42,761 nucleotides of DNA from Terriglobales bacterium (GTDB taxonomy: Bacteria > Acidobacteriota > Terriglobia > Terriglobales > Acidobacteriaceae), in contig DASPRM010000155.1 in the NCBI GenBank assembly GCA_035624455.1, forward strand, positions 1 to 42,761. Direction: 5' to 3'. Positions 8,219 through 42,761 of this stretch are shown here, one piece after another; within the stretch, counting starts at the first letter, position 1; every line of letters begins with the position of its first letter. The notes below the pieces were generated by a model that saw only the letters and a list, made by a program, of their open reading frames with translations, was not told the origin of the DNA and made no database searches. The translations under genes and the position numbers were made by a program.

Positions 8219-9271
8219 ATGAAGATCTGGGAGTTGTTTCTCATTGGGTTTTGCGCTCTTCCATTCATTGGCCAGGCACAAAACGACAAGTCCAGCATGG
8301 GGCCGACTTCGCCCTCCGCAGACGGTAGCCGCGATTTCCGAATTACATCCAGCGTCAGGGTTCCCCTTAGGGGCGCGCTGTTCGGCAGGGCCAAGTGCGA
8401 CGGCGAAGAAGATATTTATCTTCGTCTGATCGATGCGGAAGCTTCAGAAAAACACCAGGACTATTTAACTCTGCCAATTCGAAAACTCAGGCCAGATGGA
8501 ACGATAGCAGGTTCGTTCAGTGTTACAGGTGTTTCTCCACGCCTGGGACTCATGGACTTTTTTGTTACGCACAATGGAGGAATTTTCGGTGTGGGCCACG
8601 GCGACCCGCCCGTTTACGTCGTTTCATTTTCCGAGGGTTCATCTCCACCAAAGGTGGTGAGACTTGAAACCGATCACTTCGTCCCCTACCAGATTGCAGT
8701 TTTCAAAACGGGTGAGTTTCTGGTCAGCGGCATACATGGGCCGCACAATCGGACTCCTTACACCGCTGTTTTTGACGCGAGTGGAAAGCCCATTAAGACC
8801 ATCTACGAGCCCGAGGACGAGGACGCCAGGAAGAGGGCGGAAGCGGGCGAACCTGGCTTCAGGCCTGACTACATGGTCTTCGGCAACCTCTTCGTGGTTC
8901 GTGGTGATGTGGTTCTGGGTTCCGATGGGAACGCATACCTCTTGAGGGCGGGTTCTACAGCATTGATTTATGTGATTTCTTCTACAGGCCAAGTTCTGCG
9001 AAAGCTGAGTGTCGAGGCACCCAGCTCCGGGCTCACGGCGGAAAGGTTGCAATCCCTATCGGGAAGGTTGGCCATCGCTTTTCTTCAGAAGGGTATGAAC
9101 CAAGGCGTGATCCAAGTCGTTGACTACCAGGGACGGTCAATTGCCACCATCCCCAATGAGGACCCGCGGACGTATCCTGGACATATGGCATGCTTCGGGT
9201 CACAAGGCTTCGCCTTCCTGCAGACGGACGACGACAAAGGCCTCCACATCAATAGAACGTTACCCCAGTAA
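8219..9271 (+). CDS. Exported protein of unknown function, possibly beta-propeller-like
   Basis: The start is placed at ATG 8219, not at the upstream in-frame ATG 8177, because 8219 has an agaagg ribosome binding site and begins a clean signal peptide, MKIWELFLIGFCALPFIGQA. The mature protein of about 330 residues is rich in beta-strand patterns with recurring hydrophobic-Gly-Asp/Asn-Gly turns (VLGSDGNAYLL, FKTGEFLVSG, VFDASGKPI). These suggest a propeller-like sensor or scaffold; no catalytic motif is visible and I do not recognise the family. Its codon choice is more mixed than its neighbours. The gene sits exactly between two copies of the yihY tail, suggesting it arrived or was duplicated by recombination. 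Confidence 0.75.
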   Translation: MKIWELFLIGFCALPFIGQAQNDKSSMGPTSPSADGSRDFRITSSVRVPLRGALFGRAKCDGEEDIYLRLIDAEASEKHQDYLTLPIRKLRPDGTIAGSFSVTGVSPRLGLMDFFVTHNGGIFGVGHGDPPVYVVSFSEGSSPPKVVRLETDHFVPYQIAVFKTGEFLVSGIHGPHNRTPYTAVFDASGKPIKTIYEPEDEDARKRAEAGEPGFRPDYMVFGNLFVVRGDVVLGSDGNAYLLRAGSTALIYVISSTGQVLRKLSVEAPSSGLTAERLQSLSGRLAIAFLQKGMNQGVIQVVDYQGRSIATIPNEDPRTYPGHMACFGSQGFAFLQTDDDKGLHINRTLPQ

Positions 9272-9853
9272 GCGCTCGACCTGTGCACTGTCGGCTGAAG
9301 TGATTCTGCTGACCGGCGCCCCGTTTCTCAATCTTCGGCAGGATCGCGGAAAACCAGTAGCACGCTGGTGATCGGATTGCAGAACAGTTCAGTGCGGGAA
9401 CACTGCTGATCGAAATTCCCTCCATTTGTGCGTTCGTTCACTGAGCCTCTTCCAACGCGTCCCTAAAATCGCGACTCATCTGCGTTGCGTGGTTTTCGGA
9501 AAAATGGCTGTATTTCGATACTGGCGCAAACTGATTCCTCCTGTGCTGTGGACCGTGCCAGATGTACCCGGCCCTTGTAGTAAATCCGGGACCGCCCTGG
9601 ACAGCAAAGCAGAAGTGGGGCTGGCTGGGCGGTTCCGGTCCATGGAAATCCGGACCTGGGCGGCGGTCGAAAATGTGCAGGCGGAAACATGCTGGATGGG
9701 AAAAGGAGAGAGGTTCAATAGATCGGATTCGGCGAGTGGTTTCGATGCGGTGACGAGGTCGCTAGCGCCGGGCGACGGCCCGGCAGGCGCCAGCGGTGCG
9801 GGCTCCATAGATGCGCGCCAACTCCTGCGGAAAGCCCCAGCGGCGGCTGAAAA
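9272..9853. other. 582-bp gap holding a yihY tail remnant and no convincing gene
   Basis: The first 95 bases contain the second copy of the yihY 3' end (9301-9365). The rest contains an open frame 9426-9857 on the plus strand, but it has no ribosome binding site or recognisable domain, so I treat it as non-coding. A weak inverted repeat lies near 9636-9660 (ggtcc...ggacc). Confidence 0.5.
9301..9365 (+). repeat. Direct repeat copy 2: yihY tail remnant
   Basis: Right copy of the duplicated yihY 3' end. It has one extra base in the diverged centre, so the original reading frame is broken, and it lacks the rest of the gene. It is therefore a fragment, not a second functional gene. Confidence 0.85.
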
Positions 9854-37161: not shown

Positions 37162-37701
37162 TCACCGCTGACCCGTCTCTCTCCCTGGCGCCTCCACATC
37201 TTCCGTGTACACTCGCGGCTCTCCCAGGCTGCCCTTGGGCGGCAGATGGCGGATGTACGCCACCAGCGACCAGATCTCGTCGTCGTTCAGAATGCCATTT
37301 GAGGCCGGCATCCCCGAGGGCGAAATCCCATTCTTGATGATCCAATGCAGCTGGCCGTCAGTGTACTTCTGCACGCTGGGCGAGTTCAGCGGCGGCACCG
37401 GAGGCGACATATTCTCAGCAAACGGAACACCCGTGTTCTGTCCATCGAGCCCATGGCATGCCAGGCAATAGTGGGAGAAGTTCTTGCGTCCCGTCTCGAT
37501 CGTCTCCGCCGATGCCGGCAGCGGATTGTGATCCGATTTCCCGCCGACAGTTACGCGCCGCTTGAGCTGGGTCATGAGCGAGGTCTCCAGCGAGCCCAGT
37601 GGGGCGGCCTTGCAACCGGCCGCTGACATCAGGAGAGTGAATGCCAGCGGCAGACCCAGCAGTTGCATGGCCGCCCCGCGTTGGTAAAGATTGCGAGCCA
37701 C
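37162..37701 (-). CDS. Lipoprotein c-type cytochrome, one heme
   Basis: Protein of 179 residues from GTG 37699-37701, with ggag 6 bases upstream, inside the end of the cupredoxin gene. The N-terminus is a lipoprotein signal with lipobox SAAGC and C30, so it is anchored in the envelope facing the periplasm. A single heme site, C79-x2-C82-H83 (SHYCLACHG), is followed by the axial Met M131 (SPSGMP), a class I cytochrome c fold (NDDEIWSLVAYIRHLP near the end). It is the last gene of a three-gene operon, 3 bases after the cupredoxin stop, so it probably passes electrons to or from that CuA protein. Confidence 0.92.
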   Translation of the reverse strand: MARNLYQRGAAMQLLGLPLAFTLLMSAAGCKAAPLGSLETSLMTQLKRRVTVGGKSDHNPLPASAETIETGRKNFSHYCLACHGLDGQNTGVPFAENMSPPVPPLNSPSVQKYTDGQLHWIIKNGISPSGMPASNGILNDDEIWSLVAYIRHLPPKGSLGEPRVYTEDVEAPGRETGQR

Positions 37702-37704
37702 CGG

Positions 37705-38100
37705 CTACTCCACCACGATCGTCATGTTCATGTTGCCGTGACCCGACCCGCAGAAGTGGTCGCAAATGGTGGTGAATGAGCCCGCGACCTGCGGCGTCAA
37801 TGTGATCTCCGTCGTCTGTCCCGCCGGGATGAGCTCGTCAATCTTCAGCGGCTTGGAAAAGAAGCCGTGGGTCACGTCTTCACTCCTGAGCCGCAACTTG
37901 ACCGTTTCGCCCTTCTTCAAGGTGATCTGGTTAGGAGTGAAAGAAAAGCGCTTGGCAGTGATGTCGATTACGCGCGGCGAATCCTCCGCCCGCACTGCCG
38001 GCACCACGGTCAGCATCAATACCGCGCCGGCGAGAAGCAGATGAACTGCAACAATCACCAGCATCGTTCTTTTTTGGTTTCGAACTTTAATCGTGTACAT
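37705..38100 (-). CDS. Single-domain CuA cupredoxin (cytochrome oxidase subunit II-like)
   Basis: Protein of 131 residues with one N-terminal membrane helix (about 13-36) that anchors it with the soluble domain in the periplasm. The domain is the cupredoxin fold of cytochrome oxidase subunit II and holds a complete binuclear CuA site: H78 (EDVTHGF), C113, C117, H121 and M124 in the C-x3-C-x3-H-x2-M pattern (CDHFCGSGHGNM). Unlike true subunit II it has one helix, not two, and no oxidase subunit I lies nearby. It is the middle gene of the operon, 14 bp after the metallophosphoesterase stop and 3 bp before the cytochrome c start. A role as an electron relay or copper/redox sensor is inferred. 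Confidence 0.9.
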   Translation of the reverse strand: MYTIKVRNQKRTMLVIVAVHLLLAGAVLMLTVVPAVRAEDSPRVIDITAKRFSFTPNQITLKKGETVKLRLRSEDVTHGFFSKPLKIDELIPAGQTTEITLTPQVAGSFTTICDHFCGSGHGNMNMTIVVE

Positions 38101-38114
38101 AATTTCGTTCCTTC

Positions 38115-39104
38115 CTACAGAGAGGGATTTTTCAGAATTTGTGAGACCCCATTAAGCCCGGAGTATTCGCGGATAGTGAGCTCCACGTCTTTCACCACCA
38201 GCTCCGCGCTTGGGGGACGAGCCTCCACCTGGCGAATGCCCAGATTCTTGAAGGGATGGTCCTTGTCGAACGGGATGGGTTTCTTCTGCGCCACTTTCTC
38301 CGGATCGGGAAACGCAAAGATCAGAGATCGGGCTGCGTAGTGCGTGGCGTGGGCTTCGTGATGCTCGTGATCGCGATGGATGTGACCATAGAGCACGGTA
38401 ACGTTTTCATAAGGCGCGAGCACGTTCATGACGTCATCGCCATCGCTGGTGAACCACTCCCACTCGGGTTTCAGATCGAATAGAGGACGATGGGTAAAAA
38501 CCACGATTGGGGCGGTCTTCGGGAAGCGAGCCAGGTCCTGCTTCAACCACGCCAGTTGCTCGGGCCCGACCTCAGGCTTGGCGCGCGAAACGTTGTCCAG
38601 AGCGATGAAGTGCATGCCGCGGTGATCAAACGAGTAGTGGGTTTCGCCAAAGACGCTGCGAAACAATTGGGCGCCATCTAAGCCGGCATCGTGCTCCCCC
38701 GGAACGCATTTGAGTTTTCCGGTCTTGACTGTGGAGGCAATCTGCTGGAATTTTTGCATGCGTTTGGCGTGCTCGCCGGGATCTTCTGAGTCATGGGTAA
38801 GATCGCCCGTAAACAACACCAGGTCTGGAGGTGTGGGCAGGCTGTTTACCAGGGCTACGGCTTCCTCAAAGGCTTTGGTGCCCAGCGGGTCAGGTGGCCC
38901 GCTGAAGCCTACGTGAGCATCGCTGAGCTGAACGAAGGAGAATGGCGTCACCCGCTCGCCATTCTTTCGCCCCAGCTCGTCAAAGACTTCGGCTGCTTCA
39001 CTGTTGGTCCCGAACAGGGGCAGACATCTATAGAGCGTGCCGATGCCAATCGACATCCCCGTGAGCTTCAGAAACGACCTGCGATCTACTTCTTTCATAC
39101 TCAT
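38115..39104 (-). CDS. Tat-exported metallophosphoesterase
   Basis: Protein of 329 residues. A twin-arginine signal (DRRSFLKLTG) is followed by a hydrophobic segment, so it should be exported folded. Calcineurin-like phosphoesterase motifs are in order: D62-x-H64 (LSDAHVG), D101 (FTGDLTH), a G-E-H-D block at 136-139, H205 (VFTHRP), and H241-x-H243 (LYGHIHRDHEHH). The usual GNHD Asn is replaced by Glu137, an unusual change in a residue that normally contacts metal and phosphate. The first gene of the operon with CuA cupredoxin and cytochrome c, and divergent from the ECF sigma gene. The substrate is not apparent. Confidence 0.92.
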   Translation of the reverse strand: MSMKEVDRRSFLKLTGMSIGIGTLYRCLPLFGTNSEAAEVFDELGRKNGERVTPFSFVQLSDAHVGFSGPPDPLGTKAFEEAVALVNSLPTPPDLVLFTGDLTHDSEDPGEHAKRMQKFQQIASTVKTGKLKCVPGEHDAGLDGAQLFRSVFGETHYSFDHRGMHFIALDNVSRAKPEVGPEQLAWLKQDLARFPKTAPIVVFTHRPLFDLKPEWEWFTSDGDDVMNVLAPYENVTVLYGHIHRDHEHHEAHATHYAARSLIFAFPDPEKVAQKKPIPFDKDHPFKNLGIRQVEARPPSAELVVKDVELTIREYSGLNGVSQILKNPSL

Positions 39105-39198
39105 CTGGTCTCTCCTATCGCGTCGCGCTGCACGGTTGAGAACCAGCCGCAGGCAGCTTTATTCCCCGCCTCAGCTCAAAAAACTTCTACAAATTTTG

Positions 39199-39226
39199 GG
39201 AACAAAAATGCCGATGTCCGGTTTAG
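39199..39226 (+). promoter_or_regulatory. Candidate ECF-type promoter before the sigma factor gene
   Basis: GGAAC at 39199-39203, a common -35 of ECF promoters, stands 16-17 bases before a GGTTTA/GTTTAG stretch (39220-39226), just upstream of the TTG start. It could provide autoregulation, but the -10 part is weak. Confidence 0.35.
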
Positions 39227-39238
39227 TCTTGGTGAGTC

Positions 39239-39805
39239 TTGTCGGCAGCGGACCGCAACACCGGATTGTTCGAGGAGCTGGCTATGCCACTCTTCGACTC
39301 GCTCTACAATTTTGCGCAGTGGCTGACACAGGACCGCGCCGAAGCGGAAGAGTTGGTCCAGGAGACGTTTGCCAAGGCGCTTAAGGGCTTCTCTTCTTTC
39401 CAGATGGGAACCAACTTTCGCGCTTGGATATTCCGCATCCTGCGCAACACGTTTCTAACTTCCCGCACCGGATTGAAAGCGAAGATGACGGTGCCGCTGG
39501 AGGATGAAGAGGGAGGGCCGGAGCTGGCCATCAGCCGCGAAACCCCGGAGTCGCTGCTGCTGGGCGCAATCGACCATGAGCGTTTGCAGGAGGCGATCGC
39601 GCTGCTGCCCGTGGCCTTCCGCGAGGTGCTGCTGCTGAGCGATGTGGAGGAGATGTCGTATCGTGAGATTGCCGACACACTTGCTATCCCCATTGGCACC
39701 GTAATGTCGCGGCTTTCGCGGGCACGAACCGCGGTCAGAAATGCACTAAGTGGCAGCGGTCCAAAAGCTGTTCCCGAGACCAAGCCGCGGACAGGAACGG
39801 GGTAG
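39239..39805 (+). CDS. ECF RNA polymerase sigma factor
   Basis: Protein of 188 residues from TTG 39239; an in-frame stop lies 6 bases upstream. The next ATG (39284), which has a gaggagct site, would cut into the region-2 helix LFEELAMPLFDSLYN, so the longer form is preferred, though not certain. Region 2 has DRAEAEELVQETFAKALKGF and NFRAWIFRILRNTFL; region 4 has LPVAFREVLLLSDVEEMSYREIADTLAIPIGTVMSRLSRAR, a helix-turn-helix. It directs transcription of stress genes. The anti-sigma gene starts 7 bases after its stop codon. Confidence 0.93.
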   Translation: MSAADRNTGLFEELAMPLFDSLYNFAQWLTQDRAEAEELVQETFAKALKGFSSFQMGTNFRAWIFRILRNTFLTSRTGLKAKMTVPLEDEEGGPELAISRETPESLLLGAIDHERLQEAIALLPVAFREVLLLSDVEEMSYREIADTLAIPIGTVMSRLSRARTAVRNALSGSGPKAVPETKPRTGTG

Positions 39806-39812
39806 GAACCCT

Positions 39813-40571
39813 ATGCAGACGGAATGTGAGACCTGGCAATCCAAGATCGATCCGTATATCGATGCGGAGCTTTCCGAGAAGGAAGAGGCGGCGCTCAGCG
39901 AACACCTGAAGAGTTGCCCTGCGTGTTCGGGAGAAGCCCTGGGCCGGATGCGCCTGAAGCAGGCCAACCAGATCGTCGGCCGGCGCTACCGGCCGGAGCC
40001 GGACCTGCGGGCCCGCATCCAGCGTGAAGTTTTGGGAACCAAAAAGCGCCCACTTCTCGCCAGGCTTCTGCCAGCCTTTGCCGCAGCGGCCGCTTTCCTC
40101 GTGATCGCATATCTGGGCACGGTCTTTTCACTGCGCAGGATCGAGCGTCAGCAGGTTCTTGCGCAGGTCGCCGACATTCACGTGACCGACCTGGCCAGCG
40201 CCTCTCCGGTGGATGTGGTTTCCAGCGATCGGCACACCGTGAAGCCGTGGTTCCAGGGCCGGTTGCCGTTCACCTTTGATCTGCCAGAGCTGGGCGGATC
40301 GGAGTTCACGCTGGTGGGAGGACGCGTAGCTTATCTTGGCGGCGAACCGGGAGCCGAGTTGCTTTACAAGATTCGCAGTCACTATCTGACGGTGCTGATC
40401 CTTCGCGATAGTCCGAGCGTGCGGCTTGAGGGCGAGCGGGAAGCGAGCCAGTCGAATTTTCATGTTCGCAGCTGGGAGCAGAATGGGCTGCGCTACTTTC
40501 TGATCACGGATGCGGCTTCAGGCGACGGCGCGAAGCTCAGCGAGATGTTTAAGAGTGCGGAGCGCGGCTAG
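39813..40571 (+). CDS. Zinc-finger anti-sigma factor, membrane-anchored
   Basis: Protein of 252 residues from ATG 39813, 7 bases after the sigma gene stop; the longer frame from 39750 would overlap the sigma gene and is rejected. The N-terminal zinc-finger anti-sigma (zf-HC2) domain has C5, H31, C35 and C38 (EHLKSCPAC), typical of ZAS proteins that hold a sigma factor. One membrane helix lies at about 85-107 (LLPAFAAAAAFLVIAYLGTVF). The C-terminal part is periplasmic, about 145 residues of unrecognised beta-rich sequence that could be the sensor. Zinc cysteines can respond to oxidation, so a redox-controlled sigma pair is plausible. A hairpin repeat follows its stop. Confidence 0.92.
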   Translation: MQTECETWQSKIDPYIDAELSEKEEAALSEHLKSCPACSGEALGRMRLKQANQIVGRRYRPEPDLRARIQREVLGTKKRPLLARLLPAFAAAAAFLVIAYLGTVFSLRRIERQQVLAQVADIHVTDLASASPVDVVSSDRHTVKPWFQGRLPFTFDLPELGGSEFTLVGGRVAYLGGEPGAELLYKIRSHYLTVLILRDSPSVRLEGEREASQSNFHVRSWEQNGLRYFLITDAASGDGAKLSEMFKSAERG

Positions 40572-40718: not shown

Positions 40719-41948
40719 TTACGCCTTCCGAAACGCCAGCACCGCATTCAACCCGCCAAACGCAAACGAATTTGACAGCGCGTACTCGACTTCCGCGCGT
40801 CGCGCACAGTTGGGTATCACGTCCAGATCGCACTCGGGATCGGGCTCGTTGTAATTGGCGGTAGGTGGCAACACATTGTGGCCCAGGGCAAGTAGCGTGG
40901 CCACAGCTTCCAGTGCTCCGGCAGCTCCCAGACCATGCCCGTGCATTGACTTGGTGGAGCTCACCGCCACTTTGTTGGCGTGCGCGCCGAGCGCAAGGCG
41001 AATCGCCTGCGTTTCGGTGGGATCATTTACCGGCGTCCCAGTGCCGTGCGCGTTAACGTATCCCACGGCTTCGGGGACGATACCGGCGTCGCGCATGGCG
41101 TTGCGCATGGCCAGCGCCGCTCCTTCCGCGGAGGGCTTCGTGATGTGCTCGGCGTCGGAGCTCATTCCGAACCCCACCAGCTCCCCATAGATCGTCGCTC
41201 CCCGCGCTCGTGCCGCCTCCATGGGCTCCAGCACCAGCATGCCGGCGCCTTCCCCAAGCACCATGCCCTTGCGATCGCGGGAAAACGGCCGGCAAGTTTC
41301 GGGCGAGACCACCCGCATGGCTTCCCAGGCCTTCAGGATGCCGAAGCTGAATGGCGCTTCGCTTCCTCCGGTGATCGCCACATCGACCATTCCCTGCCGC
41401 ACCATCCACAAGGCCTGGCCGATCGCATGGTTCGCGGAAGAACACGCCGTTGAAATCGTATATGCCGGTCCCCGGATCCCGAATTCCATCGCAATACAGC
41501 TCGCGCCTGCATTAGCCATGGTCTTGGGAATCGTCAGGGGATGTACACGGTTCCCACCTTTTTTGTATACATCCACGAACCCGATGTCTTCCGTGGATTG
41601 ACCACCCACACAGGACCCGGTGATCACCGCCACCCGCTCGCTCAATCCTGGGCTGAGTTTTTGCCTTCCCTCGGACAGCCCCGTCCGGCACACGGCTTCG
41701 CGAGCAGCGACTAGCGCAAATTGTGCGAAGCGGTCCCAGAAGTCAGCCTGATTCGACTGGAAGTGGTCGTCCTGCTTGTAGTCGCGCACCTCCGCGCCGT
41801 TCTGGAACTTCAAGCTGGAGACGTCGGCCAGAGAAATCGGTCCTATGCCGGGGCGGCCGGCTTCAAGCGACGCCCAGTTCTCCTCCAGGTTGAGGCCCAG
41901 AGCGGAGATGATCCCCATGCCGGTCACGGCTACACGGCGATCGGCCAT
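40719..41948 (-). CDS. fabF: Beta-ketoacyl-ACP synthase II (FabF-type)
   Basis: Protein of 409 residues, normal length. The Cys-His-His triad is complete: C169 (ISTACSSANH), H301 (NAHGTGTPVND) and H338 in the STKSMHGHGLGAAG block with K333. It condenses acyl-ACP with malonyl-ACP in fatty acid elongation. The long gap with GGNRVHPLTIPKTMANAGAS is typical of KAS II rather than KAS I. It overlaps no other gene but follows the ACP stop by 3 bases on the minus strand, so the two form one transcript. As no other fatty acid genes are near, this may be a specialised KAS-ACP pair. Confidence 0.94.
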   Translation of the reverse strand: MADRRVAVTGMGIISALGLNLEENWASLEAGRPGIGPISLADVSSLKFQNGAEVRDYKQDDHFQSNQADFWDRFAQFALVAAREAVCRTGLSEGRQKLSPGLSERVAVITGSCVGGQSTEDIGFVDVYKKGGNRVHPLTIPKTMANAGASCIAMEFGIRGPAYTISTACSSANHAIGQALWMVRQGMVDVAITGGSEAPFSFGILKAWEAMRVVSPETCRPFSRDRKGMVLGEGAGMLVLEPMEAARARGATIYGELVGFGMSSDAEHITKPSAEGAALAMRNAMRDAGIVPEAVGYVNAHGTGTPVNDPTETQAIRLALGAHANKVAVSSTKSMHGHGLGAAGALEAVATLLALGHNVLPPTANYNEPDPECDLDVIPNCARRAEVEYALSNSFAFGGLNAVLAFRKA

Positions 41949-41951
41949 GGA

Positions 41952-42254
41952 TTACTGCGAGCCCGCCTTTTGCGCTATCAGCTGCTTTACCCCGGCAACC
42001 ATCTCCTGCACGCTGCGAATGGCACGCGCCCGCTCGTCGGAGATGGAGATGTCAAATGCGCTTTCCAGTTCGAACAGGATATTCACGCTGTCCAGTGAAT
42101 CCAGCCCCAGTTGCTCGAAGGAGCTGTCCAGGTGCACCTGCTCCGGGGGAATGCGCTTTTGCGTGGCGATAATGCGGAGAATCTTCTCCGTGACGGCATC
42201 GGTAGCTTCGTCGGCGGAGACGGTCAGCGGTTGGGATTGCGGCTCGGTTGCCAT
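41952..42254 (-). CDS. acpP: Acyl carrier protein
   Basis: The start is moved to ATG 42254 (100 residues) because it has a gagg ribosome binding site and the longer form from 42302 adds unlikely residues. The phosphopantetheine site is the Ser in LGLDSLDSVNIL, and the four-helix fold (AVTEKILRIIATQKRIPPEQVHLDSSFEQ) is normal. An N-terminal extension of about 18 residues precedes the fold. It is 20 residues longer than the standard ACP. It is followed by the KAS II gene after 3 bases and should serve as its carrier. Confidence 0.9.
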   Translation of the reverse strand: MATEPQSQPLTVSADEATDAVTEKILRIIATQKRIPPEQVHLDSSFEQLGLDSLDSVNILFELESAFDISISDERARAIRSVQEMVAGVKQLIAQKAGSQ

Positions 42255-42347
42255 GAGAGCCTCTATTCTAGCCCACGAACGGCTGCCGCGAAGCAAAACC
42301 AAAGCCTGAATTGCCAGACTTCACTGCACCCAAAATAGTGCATCAAT

Positions 42348-42363
42348 GGCAAATTCGTTTGCC
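42348..42363. other. UUCG-loop hairpin in the ACP/PP2C divergent region
   Basis: ggcaaa (42348-42353) and tttgcc (42358-42363) enclose ttcg: a perfect 6-bp stem with a UUCG (or CGAA in the other direction) loop. It is not followed by a U-run and lies between two divergent genes, so it is a possible operator or leader hairpin, not an obvious terminator. Confidence 0.45.
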
Positions 42364-42472
42364 TCCGTCCTGTATCCTTAATCTTTGTTCCTATCCTTGC
42401 CTGAAGGAAGTGCCACTCCCGGTAATGCTCTTGGGGCTAAAGTAAGGTAGGATTTCTGGTCTGGAAAAACAC

Positions 42473-42761
42473 ATGGGGTACAGTGTCGCCGTCGCCGGTA
42501 AGAGCGATGTAGGCTGCGTGCGCTCGAACAATGAAGACAACTTCGGGTTCGACTCGCGCTATGGCATCTACGTCGTTTGTGACGGAATGGGCGGACAGGC
42601 GGCCGGCGAGGTCGCCAGCAAGCTGAGTGTGGATGCCGTCCTGGAATATTTCCGCCAGGCCGGTTCGGGACACCACTACAAGCAGGTCGGCGACCGTTAC
42701 GACGGCCTCTCGGTTCGCGCCAACGCTCTCGCCAGCGCCATCCAGATGGCCAACCAGGCCG
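42473..42761 (+). CDS. PP2C-type serine/threonine phosphatase, 3'-truncated by the window edge
   Basis: Only the first 96 residues are inside the window. The start of the PP2C fold is clear: GKSDVGCVRSNNEDNFGFD, with the metal-binding D in SNNED, then YVVCDGMGGQAAGE, the first metal-binding Asp motif. PP2C phosphatases remove phosphate from Ser/Thr and often partner a Hanks-type kinase, which may lie beyond the window. ATG 42473 has only a weak ribosome binding site, but the frame begins exactly where the family does. Confidence 0.93.
   Translation, partial: MGYSVAVAGKSDVGCVRSNNEDNFGFDSRYGIYVVCDGMGGQAAGEVASKLSVDAVLEYFRQAGSGHHYKQVGDRYDGLSVRANALASAIQMANQA

Follow-up and report, generated by a model that had tools for sequence, protein, structure and literature searches.

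A metallophosphoesterase family with an altered metal motif, its redox carriers and a putative ECF26-like switch in Terriglobales

What would an exported metallophosphoesterase do next to a free-standing CuA protein, a cytochrome c and a pair of regulatory genes, when none of the five genes encodes an oxidase? The question is raised by a 42,761-nucleotide stretch of DNA from a Terriglobales bacterium of the Acidobacteriota (GenBank assembly GCA_035624455.1, contig DASPRM010000155.1), here called the window, which is one whole contig of a genome of 4.39 Mb. Genes for a metallophosphoesterase (MPE) with predicted export by the twin-arginine translocation (Tat) pathway, a CuA cupredoxin and a cytochrome c follow each other with intergenic gaps of 14 bp (MPE to CuA) and 3 bp (CuA to cytochrome c), and are divergent from genes for an extracytoplasmic function (ECF) sigma factor and its anti-sigma factor. 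A first-pass annotation had described these five genes with their coordinates and spacings, all of which are borne out by the sequence and the Pfam families, had noted the lack of an oxidase among them, which is correct, and had suggested a redox- or copper-responsive envelope system. Three features described below go beyond that annotation: the likeness of the switch to group ECF26, the altered motif III of the MPE and the wide distribution of the MPE family. We propose, with a rough probability of 45%, that an ECF26-like switch controls a periplasmic redox module in which the MPE acts as a redox-competent oxidoreductase.

A metallophosphoesterase family and its electron carriers

Co-occurrence in relatives had been set in advance as the test of the gene set. 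A close set of 15 distinct loci, defined by an MPE identity of 61% or more, was searched with all five proteins; the window was excluded, and L132 was left out because it lies on the same contig as L073. The CuA gene adjoins the MPE gene in 15/15 loci, the sigma and anti-sigma factors occur in 14 each, and cytochrome c is found in 9, twice as a partial match; the stretch of one locus, L134, stops 2 bases past the CuA match. The sigma and anti-sigma genes of L137 lie downstream of the MPE gene on the same strand rather than divergently, and the close-locus search found no sigma factor in L140. These loci come from genomes of the same class and from named records, among them Acidobacteria of groups 1, 7 and 22, a Candidatus Binataceae metagenome-assembled genome (MAG) and a Deltaproteobacteria MAG. 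A megaplasmid of Cupriavidus campinensis also carries an MPE (51% identical) with CuA, sigma and anti-sigma genes; the cytochrome was not found there. MPE, CuA protein, sigma factor and anti-sigma factor, often with cytochrome c, are a conserved unit, and the neighbours of the module differ between groups of relatives.

The MPE itself belongs to a far larger family. It matches PF00149 with 50.3 bits (cut-off 21.5), and at E 1e-20 it has matches in 116 of 399 genomes sampled from the class. Including the window, 61 of the class loci were read and the MPE was called in 59 of them. Relatives are encoded in at least 576 stretches of a collection of named records, of which the best 80 were analysed, with the patterns used for fetching placed in motifs I and V, not III. 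The study set thus defined has 139 loci (59 from class genomes with the window, 80 from named records), or 122 without near-duplicates and short upstream regions. By their titles as deposited, many of them naming MAGs, the 80 named records cover Acidobacteriota, Verrucomicrobiota, Pseudomonadota, Planctomycetota, Gemmatimonadota and Bacteroidota, and further Actinomycetota, Nitrospirota, Binatota, Rokuibacteriota and Armatimonadota.

The family differs from its hydrolytic kin at one metal ligand. In GpdQ, Rv0805 and the purple acid phosphatases the Asn of motif III coordinates one metal of the pair. The window protein has GEHD in place of the usual GNHD or GNHE, and the Glu is present in 59/59 class loci and in 80/80 named relatives, where motif III reads GEHD 76 times, GEND three times and GETD once. 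In the four loci with GEND or GETD (L138, L139, L183 and L144) the catalytic His is gone and the Glu is kept. For comparison we took 33 PF00149 loci from the same genome and eight relatives; motif III was readable in 21, of which 19 have GNHD or GNHE, while the two with GEHD are the window protein and one family member. Between motifs IV and V lies a W-x-W stretch whose two Trp residues do not vary across 44 sequences. Among solved structures, the fold comes closest to those of GpdQ (Z 24.6, rmsd 2.7 over 238 residues), Rv0805 and the purple acid phosphatases. The MPE shares the ligand set of the GpdQ, Rv0805 and 3',5'-cAMP phosphodiesterase group except for one position, and is unlike this group in its motif-III Glu, its predicted Tat export and its redox-carrier neighbours. 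Its score against the NCBIfam phosphodiesterase model, 36.8 bits, is far below the cut-off of 225 bits.

Electron carriers were counted by a fixed rule: a CuA domain, a type-1 cupredoxin or a CxxCH motif had to be fused to the MPE or encoded on its strand, at most about 1.6 kb downstream or 1.5 kb upstream of its gene. By this rule 125 of the 139 MPE loci have a carrier (108/122 after de-duplication), compared with 2 of 150 control genes that lie more than 3 kb away in the same loci. The type of carrier varies. Across the 139 loci, cytochrome c alone was found in 41, a type-1 cupredoxin alone in 31, a type-1 cupredoxin with DUF2231 in 19, CuA with a cytochrome in 11 and CuA alone in 7; ten have fusion forms, five DUF2231 with a cytochrome, one a type-1 cupredoxin with a cytochrome, and 14 none. 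Five of the 14 loci without a carrier are from Bacteroidota (L184, L195, L198, L201 and L208), and there a gene for a two-haem protein lies two places downstream, outside the reach of the rule. The Bacteroidota version of the locus (these five, L203 and L206) consists of the MPE gene, a gene of about 180 residues and the two-haem protein, and has no ECF sigma factor. In L184 the gene of about 180 residues looks YceI-like by eye, and a sensor kinase and a response regulator follow the two-haem protein.

On a quick tree of 122 MPE domains, in which 39 of 119 branches are weak, the carrier label changes 6 times against a mean of 44 for shuffled labels, and carrier type is therefore strongly clustered. 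The well-supported branches force at least three changes for type-1 cupredoxins, two for cytochrome c and two for CuA, and the ten fused rows need 4 gains or losses. One fusion, in L141 from a Nitrospiraceae MAG, is a single frame of 387 residues in which a twin-arginine motif and a GEHD domain are joined to a CuA domain that has its full ligand set; fusions of the MPE with a type-1 cupredoxin occur in L088, L101 and others. Two structure models reached predicted local distance difference test (pLDDT) values of 74.7 and 78.7, which is middling confidence.

Two further arrangements of related MPE genes were seen. On a Blastocatellia contig (L142, 1683-6659) two adjacent MPE modules surround sigma and anti-sigma genes; a cupredoxin gene lies upstream in one module and a CuA gene downstream in the other. 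On a plasmid of Methylocystis bryophila (L260, 3899-4975) a related MPE gene adjoins a two-component system and a siderophore receptor gene.

Promoter motif and the sigma factor

Upstream of the MPE genes we found the motif cGGGAATAAA-N13/14-GGTct. Of the 122 regions that precede trimmed MPE starts, 91 score above 8 bits, with the motif at a median of 41 bases from the start; shuffled sequences exceed 8 bits in 9 of 610 cases. With starts as called, the motif precedes 70/124 MPE genes and 47/89 sigma genes, compared with 1/87 anti-sigma genes and 40/867 further genes from these loci. Where a sigma or anti-sigma gene lies within 4 kb, 82 of 97 loci have the motif, and where none does, 9 of 25 have it (Fisher 4e-6), a contrast that persists when only full flanks are counted (50/59 and 4/15). 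The motif is absent from eight Bacteroidota loci (L176, L184, L195, L198, L201, L203, L206 and L208). A second signal from the motif count, TTGTA-N16-GGCA, was dropped because inspection by eye places it within the coding part of the divergent sigma gene.

In the window the motif before the MPE gene takes the form GGGAATAAA-N14-GTT. When the window and its close relatives are kept out of the profile training, this site is the top place in the whole window, at 20.8 bits, and the next best place reaches 9.8 bits. On the sigma side, 10 of 13 close regions score at least 18 bits, the rest being the window, L137 (sigma gene elsewhere) and L140. That the five genes form one system, as first proposed, is supported by their co-occurrence together with the ECF-type promoter before the MPE operon and the weaker one before the sigma gene. 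In the 4.39 Mb genome the MPE promoter is the single place that matches the exact core pattern. Across 6 genomes the pattern has 12 matches, 8 in this intergenic region and 4 elsewhere, and a reversed control pattern has 3. The four outside matches precede open frames, of which, by eye, just one (L222) looks like a real small secreted protein, so that the regulon looks local.

The motif resembles that of group ECF26, for which the -35 element GGAATA and the -10 element GT have been given (PMC6180224) and also the consensus GGAAT/CGTC (PMC6527743). We scored the profile from the MPE loci on 19 promoter rows of Sinorhizobium meliloti (PMC6180224) with a cut-off of 8 bits. It recovered 9 of the 11 promoters assigned to ECF26 sigma factors, at 9.3 to 21.6 bits, and 0 of 8 others, which scored 0.7 bits or less. 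In a stretch of pSymA, the two top-scoring places are the published SMa0142 and ecfR6 promoters. The sigma factor of the window is 40-43% identical to a pSymA sigma factor that adjoins a divergent S8 protease gene and that we take to be RpoE6 from this context; RpoE6 is an ECF26 member with a serine protease context (PMC6180224). Because the profile finds 9/11 ECF26 promoters and 0/8 others, the switch looks ECF26-like. A promoter of this type is evident on the MPE side of the window and weak on the sigma side.

The anti-sigma factor has the ECF26-type architecture of an N-terminal domain, here zf-HC2 at residues 5-38, a single membrane helix, seen by eye as one hydrophobic stretch near residues 85-106, and a periplasmic C-terminal domain. 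The first-pass annotation had called it cysteine-bearing. Its cysteines form the H-x3-C-x2-C zinc motif, which occurs in about 48% of membrane-bound anti-sigma factors and may be structural (PMC7406223), and since the motif is common and possibly structural they are no evidence for redox sensing.

Layout of the locus and the CuA protein

The features of the locus are listed in Table 1. The CuA protein is free-standing, 131 residues long, and has the full ligand pattern H...C-x3-C-x3-H-x2-M, as judged from its sequence and from an alignment to solved CuA domains. Its best solved relatives in the PDB are the CuA domains of cytochrome oxidase, and subunit II of cytochrome c oxidase also gives its best NCBIfam match. 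It differs from this subunit in being a free exported protein next to which no oxidase is encoded. Membership of an oxidase was rejected on a CoxB score of 53.8 against a cut-off of 147.7 and on the lack of an oxidase gene among the five. The complete CuA site claimed for a one-helix protein is present, and the N-terminal helix reads better as a cleavable signal peptide, given an AxA-like site before the domain in relatives (by eye). Elsewhere in the genome, on other contigs, two open frames of 280 and 419 residues also match the CuA protein.

Table 1. Features of the MPE locus in the window
Feature	Position	Strand	Evidence
Cytochrome c, monohaem, lipobox-like N terminus, GTG start	37162-37701	-	Pfam Cytochrome_CBB3 9.9e-14; CxxCH
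CuA cupredoxin, exported, without oxidase fusion	37705-38100	-	Cupredoxin_1 2.6e-14; COX2 family match
MPE, predicted Tat export	38115-39104	-	Metallophos 5.2e-13; twin arginine RRSFLK; GEHD in motif III
GEHD site of the MPE, Glu for the usual Asn	38688-38699	-	Translation
ECF26-like promoter of the MPE-CuA-cytochrome operon	39138-39167	-	20.8 bits, leave-out profile
Candidate promoter of sigma/anti-sigma genes, weaker	39197-39226	+	11.9 bits, full profile; 9.8 bits, leave-out profile
ECF sigma factor, ECF26-like	39239-39805	+	Sigma70_r2 and r4; alternative ATG start 39284
Anti-sigma factor	39813-40571	+	zf-HC2 2e-9; one membrane helix (by eye); outer C-terminal domain

By eye, the locus is flanked by ATP synthase genes at one end and by fabF and an acyl carrier protein gene at the other. 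The region 40719-42761 holds the fabF-like and acyl carrier protein genes followed by a PP2C-like phosphatase gene that is truncated at the end of the contig. Related CuA genes were also seen in other surroundings. A CuA and cytochrome c pair lies at 8599-9470 of stretch L034 and at 9438-10270 of L035, with an extra small CxxCH gene just upstream in L034; this pair may serve a different enzyme. In L037 and L038, at about 8.2-10.7 kb, a further free-standing CuA protein of 33% identity is encoded divergently from a different ECF sigma factor with a short zinc-finger anti-sigma factor, and this set adjoins a gene with a weak GAF-domain match.

Proposed mechanism, alternatives and meaning

The proposed system would work as follows. 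As ECF biology suggests, the membrane-held anti-sigma factor would silence the sigma factor until an envelope signal frees it. The freed sigma factor would transcribe the MPE-CuA-cytochrome c operon from the GGGAATAAA-N14-GTT promoter, a step to which the sequence points strongly, and probably also its own operon from a similar promoter that faces the opposite way, for which the sequence of the window gives a fainter indication; autoregulation is assumed here. The MPE would fold with its metals in the cytoplasm and then be exported by Tat. Adjacency, the change of partners and the natural fusions suggest that its direct partners are the CuA protein and, tethered to the membrane, cytochrome c. 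In the most tentative step, its two-metal site may be redox-competent, with the invariant Glu in place of a neutral Asn ligand. The MPE would then oxidise a harmful reduced compound and electrons would pass to CuA and on to cytochrome c, so that the MPE would take the role that the sulfite dehydrogenase SorT has in the rpoE4 locus of S. meliloti.

Oxidoreductase activity of the MPE itself is an inference. Redox chemistry at its metals is favoured because CuA is known as an electron port of terminal enzymes, because the carriers vary within one family and because the ligand change is invariant. Hydrolase folds converted to diiron redox enzymes are known from the flavodiiron proteins and from PhnZ and MIOX. 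The flavodiiron proteins arose from the metallo-beta-lactamase fold, and a His-to-Glu change in a metal motif marks their redox branch. Unlike the MPE, they have the metallo-beta-lactamase fold, and PhnZ and MIOX have an HD domain; all serve as precedents, and no kinship is claimed. A broader proposal would place the GEHD proteins in a redox enzyme class of their own, an MPE fold turned periplasmic two-metal oxidoreductase to which interchangeable CuA, type-1 copper or haem carriers bring electrons or from which they take them. This new class would occur across many phyla and act as principal effector in a so far unrecognised branch of ECF26-type stress responses; this we regard as a tentative possibility that is more probably wrong than right.

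The closest known counterpart is the rpoE4-ecfR4/sorT-sorU-azu2 locus of S. meliloti, where an ECF26 sigma factor and a membrane anti-sigma factor adjoin an operon for an exported enzyme, a cytochrome c and a cupredoxin, and where promoters with a -35 GGAAT element precede the enzyme operon as well as the sigma gene (PMC6180224, PMC6527743, PMC3511301). RpoE4 is sulfite-responsive, drives sorT, the cytochrome c gene and the pseudoazurin gene azu2, and controls its own operon (PMC3511301, PMC6527743). The window differs from this locus in having an enzyme of MPE fold instead of a molybdenum sulfite dehydrogenase and CuA instead of pseudoazurin, and in that its module occurs in many phyla. No Oxidored_molyb protein is encoded among the five genes; two matches lie on other contigs of the genome.

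Several observations weigh against the proposed redox module. All hydrolase metal ligands except the Asn, that is motifs I, II, IV and V (D-x-H, GD, H and GHxH), are kept in 59/59 class loci, and among solved folds the MPE is closest to phosphodiesterases and acid phosphatases. No carrier was found by the rule in 14 of 122 loci, and the fusion model, with a predicted template modelling score (pTM) of 0.66, gives no contact geometry. The carriers are not exclusive to the MPE, since CuA and the same cytochrome occur without an MPE or sigma gene in the stretches read of L034 and L035, and CuA occurs alone in that of L036. As to the switch, the stretch read holds no sigma gene for 25 of 122 loci, 15 of 97 loci with the sigma pair have no motif, and 9 of 25 loci without the pair carry it. 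Outside the leave-out test, the regions counted were also those on which the promoter profile had been trained, and the profile misses two of the 11 ECF26 promoters of S. meliloti, that of rpoE6 itself and that of SMa0139. The sigma-side site of the window is second best with the full profile and is weak when taken alone, because its leave-out score ties with unrelated places.

The conserved ligands lead to a different reading of the enzyme. SoxB is an exported enzyme of the MPE superfamily that works with c-type cytochromes, and on this precedent the MPE may be a true hydrolase within an oxidation pathway, cleaving a sulfonate or phosphate ester while CuA and cytochrome c serve the oxidation step. 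This appears unlikely, though not negligibly so. It would agree with a ligand set that is complete bar the Asn and with the sulfite response of two S. meliloti ECF26 sigma factors (PMC3511301, PMC6527743). Against it, the MPE matches no SoxB model in NCBIfam (E 0.01), for which reason kinship with SoxB was rejected, it has no C-terminal 5'-nucleotidase domain in Pfam, and direct fusion to an electron carrier would be odd for a hydrolase. A search for SoxY gave no match in 8 genomes, nor in any control genome. The carriers could also act as a redox gate, holding a phosphoesterase with an iron-containing site in, or switching it between, active and inactive states. Purple acid phosphatases, which the computed fold match places near the MPE, need a mixed-valent or Fe(III)-containing metal pair, and the carrier type differs among clades. 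A dedicated CuA protein and cytochrome c would however be a heavy outlay for a gate, and the His of motif III, a residue that known enzymes use in ester hydrolysis, is replaced by Asn or Thr in 4 of 80 relatives with the Glu kept; we consider such a gate quite improbable.

The genes might instead be envelope-stress regulon members whose products do not interact. ECF26 regulons may include other envelope proteins, such as a serine protease alongside rpoE6 (PMC6180224); in relatives the genes for CuA and cytochrome c also stand free of the MPE. The fusions of the MPE to CuA or to type-1 cupredoxins, and the carriers near MPE genes even where no sigma gene is nearby, as with the two-haem gene in Bacteroidota, make co-regulation alone improbable. 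Copper handling or copper stress, with the CuA protein as a copper buffer or sensor, is very improbable. A CuA protein under ECF control would suit it, and a copper-dependent ECF factor, CorE, exists; sigma factors of that type have a C-terminal Cys-rich domain (PMC3107203). The sigma factor of the window has zero Cys and therefore no domain of the CorE kind, cytochrome c is the sole carrier by the rule in 41/139 loci, and no copper transporter or oxidase is encoded among the five genes. A copper response as the principal explanation was rejected, as many relatives are haem-only. The redox half of the first suggestion is supported by the swapped and fused carriers, and its copper half is not supported, many related sets having cytochrome c without a copper protein.

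The control circuit, an ECF26-type sigma factor with a redox operon, is already known in kind. We found no description of a GEHD MPE coupled to redox carriers in the literature searched, which does not exclude one in the main 2021 ECF classification paper, and the available parts of PMC3420878, PMC3174227, PMC8315932, PMC12826043 and PMC3817407 hold nothing on this gene set. There is a real chance that the GEHD enzyme is something new.

A large family labelled just 'metallophosphoesterase' is encoded next to electron carriers far more often than chance would allow, and one of its metal ligands is not that of the hydrolases. Should its members be redox enzymes, electron transfer would once again have arisen on a hydrolase fold, and many genomes would be mislabelled. 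Even if it is a hydrolase, there would be a sigma factor regulon of essentially one locus, with its promoter and with natural fusions that pair carrier with enzyme. ECF26-like responses would extend from proteobacterial sulfite oxidation to an as yet unnamed envelope chemistry in Acidobacteriota and other phyla.

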